From a virus, in the IMG/VR virus record IMGVR_UViG_3300035670_000008, positions 152,564 through 216,563 of that record: a DNA stretch of 64,000 nucleotides; one strand, 5' to 3'. Shown piece by piece: positions 10,617 to 55,160 of this stretch. The translations under genes and the position numbers were made by a program. The notes under the pieces were generated by a model. The model was not told where the DNA came from and ran no database searches. It worked only from the letters and a program-made list of their open reading frames with translations. Positions within the stretch are counted from its first letter, which is position 1. Each line of letters starts with the position of its first letter.

Positions 10617-11721
10617 GTTCACCGAGATTCAAGAAAGAACACTCTACAGTATGGCGCCGTTGCCAGTGTCTCCCTTTGCTCAGCGGGCTGGCTACACAAA
10701 CCAGAGTCGGTATAAGACTGATCGAGACCGGGTACTGAGTATTACTTTAGGTCAACTAGAGTTGGTCGGGCTGCAAGAGCGGTACTTGGATAGCTATAAC
10801 GAGACAGACCAACCCTCAGTGCTACAATATCGAGACTTGATGCTAGCGAAGGCAATTGAGGCCTCTCTGTATAACACGCAGTTTGTGAATGGGGTCAACG
10901 GGGAGCTGACCTGGCACGCAAAGAAGACCTGGAACTACTACAGCTACAATGACATCTGGGAATACATTATGCCTGGGGAGATAGTAGACTACCCCTATCT
11001 GTGGGCGGGGTTAGGGTGTCCAGCTTACTACTTCTACTACTCCAAACCCAACCCAGAAGAAGGTCTAATTCGCTCCTACGAACGGCTGCTCACTTTCTTC
11101 TGGGCGACCTTTGCTTGTAGCCACAACACTCAAACTCCCCGCCAACGACTCCAGTATTTAATCGATTCGATTGGTCTAACTTCAGTATTTCTTAAAGAGC
11201 TTAATCTTTATAACGACCGGCTGGTGCCAACCGCTTATATGAAACGGAATAACCTGCCGAAGTTAACCCAACTAAAGCCCGCGTTGTTATTAAATCAATA
11301 CGAGTCAGAATACTTCGCTATCGTCTTAGAAGATGTTGAATCTGACTTTAAAGACCAGTTCAGTAAAGCTACCAAAGCTATTCTCTCGATGGCAAAGCCA
11401 GGAGGCTTAAGCTATATAGCTCAATTCTTTATCGTGGAGGCATATCTCAAGATAGCCAAACTTCTAACCTTAGACCGTAGCTACGGTCAGCTCCCTTTAA
11501 CCACCTACCTAAACTTAAACACTTTAGACGTTATCTCTAACTGTCAGGCTGTCGTTAGGTTGTTGAGCTTAGCTAACGACGCCTATACCATTCTGAATTG
11601 GTACGATAACAAGAAGAACGAGTTTCTAGAAAAGAACTTGTTGTTGTGGTTAGCTAATACCCCCGACCAAACCTTAGCCTACGACTCCGAATACAGACTG
11701 ACTAACTTTGATGGCAACTAA
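10609..11721 (+). CDS. Unknown baseplate/tail protein
   Basis: A 370-residue protein of unknown family, with many aromatic residues (Tyr and Trp pairs such as WNYYSYNDIW near residue 105). The frame is open further upstream, but ATG at 10609 overlaps the preceding stop by 8 nt, which is the usual spacing here, and the upstream codons read through the end of another real gene. The stop overlaps the next start by 11 nt. A virion role is inferred only from the operon, which also encodes spike, gp25-like and J-like proteins. Confidence 0.7.
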   Translation: MPKFTEIQERTLYSMAPLPVSPFAQRAGYTNQSRYKTDRDRVLSITLGQLELVGLQERYLDSYNETDQPSVLQYRDLMLAKAIEASLYNTQFVNGVNGELTWHAKKTWNYYSYNDIWEYIMPGEIVDYPYLWAGLGCPAYYFYYSKPNPEEGLIRSYERLLTFFWATFACSHNTQTPRQRLQYLIDSIGLTSVFLKELNLYNDRLVPTAYMKRNNLPKLTQLKPALLLNQYESEYFAIVLEDVESDFKDQFSKATKAILSMAKPGGLSYIAQFFIVEAYLKIAKLLTLDRSYGQLPLTTYLNLNTLDVISNCQAVVRLLSLANDAYTILNWYDNKKNEFLEKNLLLWLANTPDQTLAYDSEYRLTNFDGN

Positions 11722-14110
11722 ATTTACCGACTACTCCGTCCAAAGCCTCACCAAAACAAAGCCAACGATTAGTGGCAGCTCCTACGACACGACGTATGTG
11801 CTAGAGACCAGCGCGGCGACAACGCCAGGCAGTCCGGTAACCGTGACTGTCAGGGCCTACCCGCCGGTCAGCGACCTTAGTCAGCTTAAACTCGAGGCAG
11901 CAAACCCAACACTACAAGCAGCCATGGTGGCTACTAAATTCGTTCAGACAGAGAAGCCTGGGGTTTATCAGGCATCTGTCACAGTCAGTAAAGCACTGGA
12001 GCAAGGGTTAGAGCTATACGTTAGAGACACTAAAGGAAACCTAAGTAACGGTTCAGTGGTGTCTACGGTAAGCGCGCCAAAAGCAGAGGCCTCAAACTAC
12101 AACAATCAAGTGGTGAGCACCCTAAACCAAACCTCTGCGATGTCAGACGCGTCAGAGTCAAACAAGGCAAAAGCGGGCACCTACGATGCGGCTCTGAAAA
12201 AGTTAGGGATGAGTGAGCCGACTAGCCGGAGCACCCAGACGACTAAAGGGAGAACTGGCGGGGCGGTGGAAACCGCGGTAGCTGGATACCGATCGCTAGC
12301 AGAGGCCCTCGCAGCCAACCATAAGTATGATGAGTTCAGCAAGCTCCGGGTGTGGGTAAACCTTTCTAAACCGAAGAACTACCGGATTAAACGGCTTAAC
12401 GAGTATCGAACCGCTCTAGATAACTGTATGGAGCGACTAGCCGTAGTGATGCAGAACTACGACTACGTCGAGGTGGGGAGTAGCGTCAAAGACCATACCA
12501 ACGCGGAGAACTCCAACGCGCTGTCGTTTCGCTTCAATGCTGGTACGTTCTTTGATGTGTATTCACCTGCGTCAGTCTTTAACACGGAGTATCTGATTCA
12601 ATACTCCACGCGGGGCACCTTTCGCCAAACTGCCATCGACCAGCTCAGCAGTTTCTATACCTGGCATCGGGCTCAGAACAATATGGTTCACCAGGCTCGA
12701 GATTACTTCAACTACTCAACTCAGCACTCCTTTCTGGGCGGCAATATCAACACGACTATCTACCGAGATAAGAAGGAGCGGTACGAGTATCTAGTGACCC
12801 AGATCGGGCAAGTTAAAGGCGGCGAGAAAGTAGAGGGTAAACTGAGAAGCGCTTCTAAGAAGACGGCTGAATTTAACGGGCAGTCCGCCCAGCTACCTAG
12901 TATGGGAGGAAGCGAAAGCGGTGGTATGGGCGGCGGGGGTTTTACAGTTGAGGGAGCTTCAGACGTAGCTACAGATACGACACTACCCACCAGCTCTGCG
13001 ACTGAAGCAGCTGAGCCTACTGACGGCGTAAAAGGAAGTGCTTCCGGTGAAGCCGAGACAGTTGCTCCTGATAAAGTCTCGAACTGGGACATCAGCGTTA
13101 AGAACGACTTTAATCTCCAGTCTGTAGTTGGAGGAATTATCCAGCAAGCGAAGGATTTATTCTTCCAGCAAGCCAAGGCAATTATTCTCAAAGCCTCCGA
13201 GAGCTTATTCTTAAAGTCCTCTAAGCATGTCTGCATAGAGGCTAAACAAGACCTATACCTGAAAGCCGGCGGCACTCTTTACATCAACGCTGACAACTTA
13301 GTTATCCGTACCGTCAGCGGTAACATCCAACGGCTGGTGGGCTACGCTGGCATCGATGAATACGTAGAGAAGAACGGCATAGACCTGCTCAAGAATGAGG
13401 ACGGCGACCCTTATAAAGACGAGAACGGGGACTATATTACGATGGCTGGAGATGAAGCCGTCTCCGTTAAAATGCCTACTCCACAGAAAGGGACTATCGT
13501 TGAGTTTCTGAAGCCAGGCCCTATCTATGTACCGACGCCCAAATTAGTGGAGGGAGACAATAGCCTCTTTACAGACTTCCTTAAAGACATGAATCTAGAC
13601 CCCATTACTAACCTCACAGACATCCTAGACGGCAGTGCGCTAAGCGATGCGTTAGGGGACTCTCTGCTGAGCACTTTTGGGGAAGGAGACCTTGGTAAGT
13701 TTATTACTGACGTAGCCACCAGCGGGCTAGAGCAAATGCTGGACGCAGGGTTAGACGCACTACCTGGCGCAGGAGAGTTGTTAGATACCGTAGGTGACAT
13801 TAACGACCAGCTCAATGCCTTCGTCGATGAACTAATCGAGATTAAGAAGAGTTCGGTGGAGGTCGTAGGGCCTGACCTTAGCTACATCGTCACCTATAAG
13901 CTTCCAGAAGCGCCAGCTACTGCTGTAATAACTTACCCTACGGAGCTACTGGACTACCCGAAAGTTTCAGTACCTAAGCCTGCTTCTACTGGCAGTAACG
14001 ACCTTAGAAATATGCCCGTGTTACCTAAGGCTCGAATCGAACCCCTCTGGCAGAACGGGGTAGATATGAACACACCAACTACCCCAGCAGAGGGAACTCA
14101 AGATGCCTAA
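11711..14110 (+). CDS. Large spike-like baseplate protein
   Basis: This 799-residue protein begins with about 100 residues of Ig-like or fibronectin-like beta structure (TTYVLET, PVTVTVRAYPPV, GVYQASVTVS). It then has a helical middle and, at about 460-545, a run of short alternating strands (ISVKNDF, LFFQQAKAIILKA, SLFLKSSKHVCIEAKQDLYL cut here at 20, then LYINADNLVI) that looks like the intertwined beta helix of cell-puncturing spikes. A Gly/Ser linker lies at about 395-420. The upstream in-frame TTG at 11708 is less likely than ATG at 11711. The role is inferred from the repeat pattern and from its place between the hub region and wedge genes; there is no enzyme motif. Confidence 0.55.
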   Translation: MATKFTDYSVQSLTKTKPTISGSSYDTTYVLETSAATTPGSPVTVTVRAYPPVSDLSQLKLEAANPTLQAAMVATKFVQTEKPGVYQASVTVSKALEQGLELYVRDTKGNLSNGSVVSTVSAPKAEASNYNNQVVSTLNQTSAMSDASESNKAKAGTYDAALKKLGMSEPTSRSTQTTKGRTGGAVETAVAGYRSLAEALAANHKYDEFSKLRVWVNLSKPKNYRIKRLNEYRTALDNCMERLAVVMQNYDYVEVGSSVKDHTNAENSNALSFRFNAGTFFDVYSPASVFNTEYLIQYSTRGTFRQTAIDQLSSFYTWHRAQNNMVHQARDYFNYSTQHSFLGGNINTTIYRDKKERYEYLVTQIGQVKGGEKVEGKLRSASKKTAEFNGQSAQLPSMGGSESGGMGGGGFTVEGASDVATDTTLPTSSATEAAEPTDGVKGSASGEAETVAPDKVSNWDISVKNDFNLQSVVGGIIQQAKDLFFQQAKAIILKASESLFLKSSKHVCIEAKQDLYLKAGGTLYINADNLVIRTVSGNIQRLVGYAGIDEYVEKNGIDLLKNEDGDPYKDENGDYITMAGDEAVSVKMPTPQKGTIVEFLKPGPIYVPTPKLVEGDNSLFTDFLKDMNLDPITNLTDILDGSALSDALGDSLLSTFGEGDLGKFITDVATSGLEQMLDAGLDALPGAGELLDTVGDINDQLNAFVDELIEIKKSSVEVVGPDLSYIVTYKLPEAPATAVITYPTELLDYPKVSVPKPASTGSNDLRNMPVLPKARIEPLWQNGVDMNTPTTPAEGTQDA

Positions 14111-54719: not shown

Positions 54720-54751
54720 AGAAAAAGTGAAGGGGGCGCATAGGCACCCCC
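54720..54751 (-). terminator. Terminator of the tmRNA/tRNA transcript
   Basis: GGGGGTGC, CTAT, GCGCCCCC form an 8-bp stem (one wobble) followed by TTCACTTTTTCTT on the - strand. It ends the RNA array 40 nt after the tag stop codon. Confidence 0.85.
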
Positions 54752-54910
54752 GGTGACCTAGTTGGGTAACAAGGTTAGGTCAGACCCCGTCATTCATACC
54801 GCAACAGCGGTACGTTTGAAAGCAACCACTTGGTTGGCATTTGTTGTTTGCTCATCCGAGCAGGCTTCATCGTAGTGCCATCCTTTACCAATCGAAACCG
54901 TTGCATCCCC
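54752..54910 (-). ncRNA. ssrA: Permuted tmRNA, coding piece
   Basis: On the - strand this begins GGGGATGCAACGGTTTCGAT, the tmRNA 5' end with its D-loop-like region. GGGGATG pairs over 7 bp with CATCTCC of the acceptor piece at 55068-55074. TTGGTAA pairs with TTGCCAA and CTACGA (54870-54875) with TCGTAG (55109-55114) of the acceptor piece to make helix P2. A TGCTC/GAGCA hairpin follows as part of pseudoknot 1. The tag frame starts at GCC (54838) and ends at TGA (54794): ANQVVAFKRTAVAV, like cyanobacterial tags of the ANNIVxFxR type but ending AV rather than AA. A 7-bp hairpin (54754-54760 with 54776-54782) closes the piece. tmRNA rescues stalled ribosomes and tags the nascent chain for proteolysis. 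The 3' end is approximate. Confidence 0.93.
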
Positions 54911-54911
54911 G

Positions 54912-54987
54912 TGGTACAGGGTACAGGAGTTGAACCTGTCTAAGCGGAATTATGAGTTCCGTGCCTAAACCGCTCGGCCAACCCTGC
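54912..54987 (-). tRNA. tRNA-Met or tRNA-Ile2 (anticodon CAT)
   Basis: A 76-nt cloverleaf with encoded CCA: acceptor GCAGGGT/ACCCTGT, anticodon stem CGGAA/TTCCG with loop CTCATAA, T-arm ACAGG-TTCAACT-CCTGT, discriminator A. The anticodon stem lacks the three G-C pairs of initiator tRNA. CAT serves AUG, or AUA if the host lysidine synthase modifies C34; the sequence alone does not settle this. It ends 1 nt before the tmRNA coding piece. Confidence 0.93.
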
Positions 54988-54988
54988 A

Positions 54989-55062
54989 AGGCACCTCCTG
55001 AAGGAATCGAACCCTCGTATTCGGTTTTGGAGACCGACGTTCTACCACTGAACTAAGGAGAT
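54989..55062 (-). tRNA. tRNA-Trp (anticodon CCA)
   Basis: Acceptor ATCTCCT/AGGAGGT, anticodon stem TCGGT/ACCGA with loop CTCCAAA (anticodon CCA), T-arm GAGGG-TTCGATT-CCTTC with one wobble, discriminator G (54992). The 3' end reads CCT rather than CCA, so the terminal A must be added by the host. It begins 1 nt after the CCA of the tmRNA acceptor piece. Confidence 0.93.
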
Positions 55063-55063
55063 T

Positions 55064-55128
55064 TGGTGGAGATGGGGAGAGTCGAACTCCCGTCTTGGCA
55101 ACCAGCCGCTACGACTATCCCAGTTTAA
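55064..55128 (-). ncRNA. ssrA: Permuted tmRNA, acceptor piece
   Basis: On the - strand TCGTAGCGGCTGGTTGCCAA (P2 3' strand) leads into AGAC, T-arm GGGAG-TTCGACT-CTCCC, acceptor strand CATCTCC, discriminator A and encoded CCA (55066-55064). Taken alone it looks like half a tRNA, but its acceptor and P2 strands pair with the coding piece 150 nt downstream. Order acceptor piece first, coding piece second, is that of permuted two-piece tmRNA genes known in some cyanobacteria and alphaproteobacteria. The 5' end is estimated. Confidence 0.92.
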
Positions 55129-55160
55129 AGACGTATGGAAGGTCTATTGTTATTTTAGCT

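Follow-up and report, generated by a model that had tools for sequence, protein, structure and literature searches.

What can lie between the two pieces of a circularly permuted tmRNA gene? The spacer of such a split gene is normally discarded. Prochlorococcus tmRNA has been seen as two molecules on Northern blots (PMC1242208). We addressed this question at a locus in the last 64,000 nucleotides of a virus record (IMG/VR IMGVR_UViG_3300035670_000008; 216,563 bases), a stretch that is called the window here. The initial annotation had described a permuted two-piece tmRNA with two tRNAs intervening, and our analysis confirms the order to the base. On the minus strand, the tmRNA acceptor piece is followed by one nucleotide, tRNA-Trp(CCA), four nucleotides, a tRNA with anticodon CAU, one nucleotide, the tmRNA coding piece and a terminator, so that tRNA makes up 147 of the 153 nt of intervening sequence and the usual gene-free spacer is absent. 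The features, all on the minus strand, are as follows.

55064..55118, minus strand: tmRNA acceptor (3′ tRNA-like) piece, including a P2 strand; found by covariance model and ARAGORN, single copy in the phage record; its 5′ start varies by method (55116 with RF04321, 55156 with ARAGORN, listed here as 55118), and its 3′ terminal sequence is GGGAGTTCGACTCTCCCCATCTCCACCA, with last base 55064
55091-55075, minus strand: T-arm of the acceptor piece, GGGAG-TTCGACT-CTCCC
55074-55068, minus strand: acceptor strand CATCTCC, then A73 and an encoded CCA up to the end of the piece at 55064
55063, minus strand: one-nucleotide spacer, A (read from the sequence)
54992..55062, minus strand: tRNA-Trp(CCA), RF00005 65.8 bits, also called by ARAGORN
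54988..54991, minus strand: four-nucleotide spacer, CCTT (read from the sequence)
54912..54987, minus strand: tRNA with anticodon CAU and encoded CCA, RF00005 54.4 bits, also called by ARAGORN
54911, minus strand: one-nucleotide spacer, C (read from the sequence)
54732..54910, minus strand: tmRNA coding piece with the GGGGATG acceptor 5′ strand, P2 strands, tag reading frame and 3′ stem-loops (RF04321/RF01850)
54794..54838, minus strand: tag reading frame ANQVVAFKRTAVAV and stop codon, cyano-type with an AV end (ARAGORN)
54732..54751, minus strand: intrinsic-terminator-like hairpin GGGGGTGCCTATGCGCCCCC then TTCACTTTTT (terminator prediction)

The covariance model for permuted tmRNA (RF04321, tmRNA_permuted) accepted both pieces in a match at 55116-54794, scoring 86.8 bits (E 3e-15) against a gathering score of 47, with the tRNAs treated as an insert in the model. 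ARAGORN, which is independent of Rfam, called a permuted tmRNA and both tRNAs, and the beta-type model RF01850 aligned end to end with 63 bits (E 3.8e-18) against a cut-off of 84, which it does not reach. RF04321 can misfire above its cut-off on a one-piece tmRNA with a tRNA ahead of it, as we observed in two other contigs (L003, 3172-3354; L115, 3102-3298), and automated annotation can be misled in this way. This does not apply at the window locus, because the coding piece has no RF00023 match and no second acceptor piece follows it. Terminator prediction found two terminators compared with 1.4 expected in shuffled sequence, which is weak alone, and the position of the hairpin fits. No sigma-70-like promoter was found immediately upstream of the locus.

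The tag reading frame is complete, with a resume codon and a stop. Its product, ANQVVAFKRTAVAV, resembles the viral tmRNA tags ANKIVSFRRTAVAV and ANKIVKFERTAVAV and is kin to the ANKIV...TAVAV tags; its sequence marks it as a tag of the cyanobacterial/cyanophage type. In a tree built from the joined pieces, the window tmRNA falls, on a long branch, among viral tmRNAs with AVAV tags. LV, AV, TA and TV ends are found on many cyanophage tmRNA tags, and the picocyanobacterial chromosomal tags sampled end in AA. Tag ends other than AA might alter protease recognition, and the AV end makes the fate of proteins tagged by the window tmRNA unclear.

Three helices had been proposed to hold the pieces together, and all are present: the acceptor pairing GGGGATG/CATCTCC (54910-54904 with 55074-55068), TTGGTAA/TTGCCAA (54891-54885 with 55101-55095) and CTACGA/TCGTAG (54875-54870 with 55114-55109). 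The acceptor stem formed between the pieces contains a G3-U70 wobble pair and A73. When acceptor strands were taken by position alone, with no pairing criterion, they paired at 7/7 positions in 53/53 un-nested and 15/15 nested cyano-type loci. At pair 5:68 the 53 un-nested loci show G-C, A-T, T-A and C-G, and the nested ones show G-C and A-T. G3-U70 is present in every one of the un-nested 53 and also in the nested strands listed. The complete acceptor pairing, the variation of pair 5:68 and the invariance of G3-U70 argue that the pieces go on pairing across the insert. In ViennaRNA predictions for the whole precursor, the inter-piece helices were not favoured (probability 0.04 or less) and other pairings were preferred. 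Co-folding of the excised pieces gave −92.9 kcal/mol, versus −75.0 ± 4.9 kcal/mol for shuffled sequences (0/200 shuffles as low); the acceptor stem was recovered, and the P2 pairings were absent from the minimum-energy structure. We infer that folding and cutting of the tRNAs during transcription would sidestep the competing pairings of the precursor.

Both nested tRNAs form intact cloverleafs and exceed the RF00005 gathering score of 29. The tRNA-Trp has discriminator G73 and does not encode its CCA, CCTT coming next; in the RF00005 alignments it differs by one substitution from the copy in a sister contig described below. The second tRNA had been labelled tRNA-Met/Ile(CAT). Its CAU anticodon stands, and it is probably tRNA-Ile2 rather than tRNA-Met. 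The GGG/CCC pairs of initiators are missing from its anticodon stem (CGGAA/TTCCG), and the antisense strand matches the plastid trnI-CAU-like family RF04354 at 34.2 bits, under the family cut-off. AUA and UGG occur at 7.7 and 10.8 per thousand in the window ORFs, frequencies that on their own neither support nor exclude codon compensation.

The locus is unique within its record. The acceptor motif has one copy in the whole record, the start of the coding piece has one exact occurrence in the window, and the whole locus gives one match in the record. No standard one-piece tmRNA scored above cut-off anywhere in the record, the best match being 24.1 bits and falling only at the acceptor piece. 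The two outcomes that the initial annotation had named as contrary to its reading were both looked for, and what we found is a model that accepts both pieces and a record that holds no one-piece tmRNA. The record contains one tRNA besides the nested pair, a tRNA-Ala(TGC) at 68,485-68,557, making three in all, and no gene for SmpB. Its terminase and tail sheath are 30-32% and 27-29% identical, respectively, to those of Microcystis phage Ma-LMM01 and Microcoleus phage My-WqHQDG. Judged from these protein identities, the phage is a distant relative of Ma-LMM01 and My-WqHQDG, and this distant kinship with both phages makes a cyanobacterial host likely; it is probably a cyanophage of freshwater type. 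No permuted tmRNA was found in relatives at 54-69% terminase identity; BLAST of the full locus against named phages returned tRNA matches only, and the coding piece alone gave no good match there. Elsewhere in the window, a 6,943-aa ORF (25810-46641, plus strand) carries VanY, Peptidase_M23, DPBB_1 and Beta-lactamase2 domains in its last part, and probably encodes a giant virion or tape-measure-like protein with wall-degrading domains.

A sister contig of 79,810 bases in IMG/VR (IMGVR_UViG_3300047551_002099, hereafter G001; L296 in the coordinates below), with a terminase 80% identical to that of the window phage, carries the tmRNA in the same gene neighbourhood. It has the acceptor piece, one A and tRNA-Trp, and then the 3′ half of tRNA-Ile2, one C and the coding piece. 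Over its first 164 nt this coding piece matches that of the window phage exactly, in surroundings that are about 92% identical. Since G001 shows the same order, the nested order is older than the split between the two. Two RNA genes in G001 are interrupted, one insert splitting the acceptor piece at its T-stem and the other sitting in the anticodon loop of tRNA-Ile2, directly after the CAU anticodon. Each insert carries an HNH_3 endonuclease ORF on the opposite strand:

L296 13750-13213, minus strand (strand of the RNA genes): first insert
L296 about 13080-12530, minus strand (strand of the RNA genes): second insert
L296 13191-13745, plus strand: HNH_3 ORF
L296 12529-13083, plus strand: HNH_3 ORF

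A group I intron was considered for these inserts and found no support, with no intron family matching over them at E ≤ 10; they resemble homing elements aimed at both RNA genes. The second insert also contains a class II-like tRNA with a long variable arm and anticodon CAU (12388-12476, minus strand), which Rfam matches best to tRNA-Sec, at 41.4 bits and under cut-off. With both the acceptor piece and tRNA-Ile2 interrupted in G001, the tmRNA system may be dispensable.

The initial annotation had suggested searching related phages for the same order, and beyond G001 this search revealed a wider pattern. Pattern scans followed by ARAGORN identified at least 15 further IMG/VR contigs with a single complete tRNA between the pieces and just a few nucleotides of spacer. 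The nested gene is tRNA-Asn in L029, L070, L092, L105, L265, L277, L278 and L279, and tRNA-Tyr in L068, L093, L104, L110, L270, L283 and L284. Un-nested spacers, by comparison, are 4-29 nt long and gene-free in 72 cyano-type loci. Among the matches listed, two nested tRNAs occur only at the window locus and, interrupted, in G001: an IMG/VR scan for spacers of 145-175 nt with an encoded CCA gave 22 loci with tRNAs in none, and one for spacers of 217-247 nt gave two loci, again with no tRNAs. A pattern scan for a single nested tRNA in 84,980 prokaryote species genomes, blind to double nesting and to other acceptor sequences, returned 11 matches and no nested case. Ten of these were picocyanobacterial permuted tmRNAs with short spacers; the other was a run of tRNAs leading up to a tmRNA-like start, without a permuted-tmRNA call. 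Loci negative with ARAGORN proved, on re-examination with Rfam, to be mainly one-piece tmRNAs preceded by tRNAs, or permuted tmRNAs that were cut off. One contig, L108, has a Pistol ribozyme match (10932-11017, minus strand; 39.5 bits, cut-off 34.5) together with tRNAs and a standard tmRNA match.

Empty counterparts of the filled spacers exist in isolated phages. L110 and phage S-CAM1 share the same tmRNA and are about 95% identical outside the insert, S-CAM1 lacking the tRNA-Tyr; this filled and empty pair offers a natural test of permuted-tmRNA processing. L092/L277 and S-SSM7 are 85% identical, and S-SSM7 lacks the tRNA-Asn. The permuted tmRNAs of the two isolates, cyanophages published long ago, lie at:

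L360 685-999: S-CAM1 permuted tmRNA
L361 662-1013: S-SSM7 permuted tmRNA

Neither is annotated as tmRNA in its record, and that of S-SSM7 has a hypothetical protein annotated across the tmRNA; such genes are easily missed. On the tmRNA tree the nested state requires nine changes, at least seven of them forced by well-supported branches, a count to be read with the bootstrap values not settled and with some changes possibly being losses or horizontal exchange.

We consider it probable that the window locus is a phage ssrA gene of the circularly permuted cyanobacterial type, the intervening sequence of which is now occupied by two tRNA genes that are intact and probably functional. A single precursor would run from the acceptor piece through the terminator. 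RNase P would cut ahead of tRNA-Trp (55062), tRNA-Ile2 (54987) and the coding piece (54910), and 3′ trimming would finish the acceptor piece and both tRNAs, with CCA addition for tRNA-Trp. RNase Z need not be involved where the CCA is encoded (acceptor piece and tRNA-Ile2), exonucleolytic trimming being as likely there. All four RNAs would in this way likely be released by tRNA-processing enzymes. The tmRNA pieces would join via the acceptor stem and P2 and be charged with alanine, the G3-U70 pair being present; the paired tmRNA would act with host SmpB in trans-translation, and the nested tRNAs would serve phage translation. Because tRNA enzymes already excise the spacer of a permuted tmRNA, a tRNA gene fits there with no new processing step, which would explain repeated nesting in cyanophages that carry tmRNAs in tRNA arrays. 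More generally, we see an even chance that the permuted-tmRNA spacer is a recurrent slot for tRNA genes in cyanophages, these genes entering and leaving it, up to two at once, since the processing of tRNAs excises the spacer and at the same time matures what it carries, tying tmRNA and tRNA output to a single precursor with a shared set of cuts.

Other readings of the locus were weighed against this one. The phage tmRNA could act as a competitor instead of a rescue RNA, titrating host SmpB or skewing tagging, with the tRNAs as passengers. The AV tag end, where sampled picocyanobacterial chromosomal tags end in AA, would fit such a role, as would the lack of SmpB in the phage record, and a TLD-only phage tmRNA (DS6A) has been described as an inhibitor of endogenous tmRNA in E. 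coli (PMC11915505). The window tmRNA nevertheless retains a full tag reading frame with its stop and the alanine identity pair, and AV, LV, TA and TV ends are common in cyanophage tmRNAs; we regard a competitor as unlikely. Decay is a further reading, in which the tmRNA is non-functional and the tRNA genes arrived by drift within a tRNA cluster. It draws on the HNH-endonuclease inserts in the T-stem and anticodon loop of G001, which match no known intron family, and on the absence of the tmRNA from relatives at 54-69% terminase identity. Set against this are the intact pairings, G3-U70, T-loop, tag frame and both cloverleafs of the window locus, the 164 identical nucleotides at the start of the coding piece amid about 92% local identity, and the recurrence of the nested state elsewhere in phages with perfect acceptor pairing. 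Decay therefore seems to us distinctly improbable.

It could also be that nothing is permuted, and that the acceptor piece is a tRNA-like remnant upstream of a one-piece tmRNA. RF04321 does misfire in exactly this way above its cut-off, in L003 and L115. At the window locus the expectation fails on several counts: the 216-kb record has no standard tmRNA above cut-off (24.1 bits, at the acceptor piece only) and no other acceptor piece, the coding piece closes with its own terminator, and many cyanophages have two-piece relatives with 4-29 nt spacers. Within this record, the missing standard tmRNA and the single acceptor piece refute a one-piece reading, and a remnant is very hard to credit. The metagenomic origin of the contig raises the thought of an assembly artefact fusing tRNA and tmRNA fragments, but the same junctions appear in the separately assembled G001 and the design recurs in unrelated contigs, so that we judge the chance of an artefact to be negligible.

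The permuted tmRNA enclosing tRNA genes shows that other genes can be housed between the pieces of a split structural RNA gene, and a normally discarded tmRNA spacer has apparently been reused as a site for working tRNA genes. It also suggests why the permuted form tolerates inserts: the tRNA-processing machinery cuts regardless of the content between the pieces. The initial annotation was right that the intervening sequence of this permuted tmRNA is made of tRNA, two complete genes set off by 1-4 nt, and its proposal that processing of the tRNA ends would free the tmRNA ends is the pathway to be expected. It knew of no such nested arrangement; a single tRNA-Ala had already been reported (PMC11915505), and there are the 15 or more viral contigs with one nested tRNA. 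Our literature search found no phage example and no report of two nested tRNAs, which is weak evidence, as most subscription papers fell outside it; single nesting is already known, and for two nested tRNAs and recurrent phage use we found no precedent.

With the permuted tmRNAs of Cyanobacteria and cyanophages (RF04321, RF01851), the window locus shares the piece order, acceptor and P2 pairing, G3-U70, the tag type (ANNIV/ANKIV...) and the tRNA-like processing sites. It differs in its spacer, 153 nt made of two tRNAs in place of 4-29 gene-free nucleotides. The two-piece tmRNAs of phage Melnitz and other marine phages (PMC9004378) are likewise phage-borne and permuted, but that of Melnitz is of the alphaproteobacterial type and linked to a glutamine riboswitch, and the available text of that report describes no nested tRNA. 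In the rearranged LSU rRNA of Tetrahymena mitochondria, as cited in PMC10085705, a tRNA gene lies between swapped pieces, as in the window; according to that citation, the case concerns a ribosomal RNA, an organelle and one tRNA. The 2025 tmRNA database paper (PMC11915505) describes an intact tRNA-Ala in the intervening sequence of the permuted tmRNA of GCA-2688965__sp002688965.2, a metagenome bin that is nominally archaeal and perhaps mis-binned, and its authors called the nested tRNA unique. That locus and the window locus are alike in having an intact tRNA gene inside a permuted-tmRNA spacer; the former has one tRNA and comes from a bin, whereas the latter has two and belongs to a phage for which a sister genome and recurrent relatives exist.
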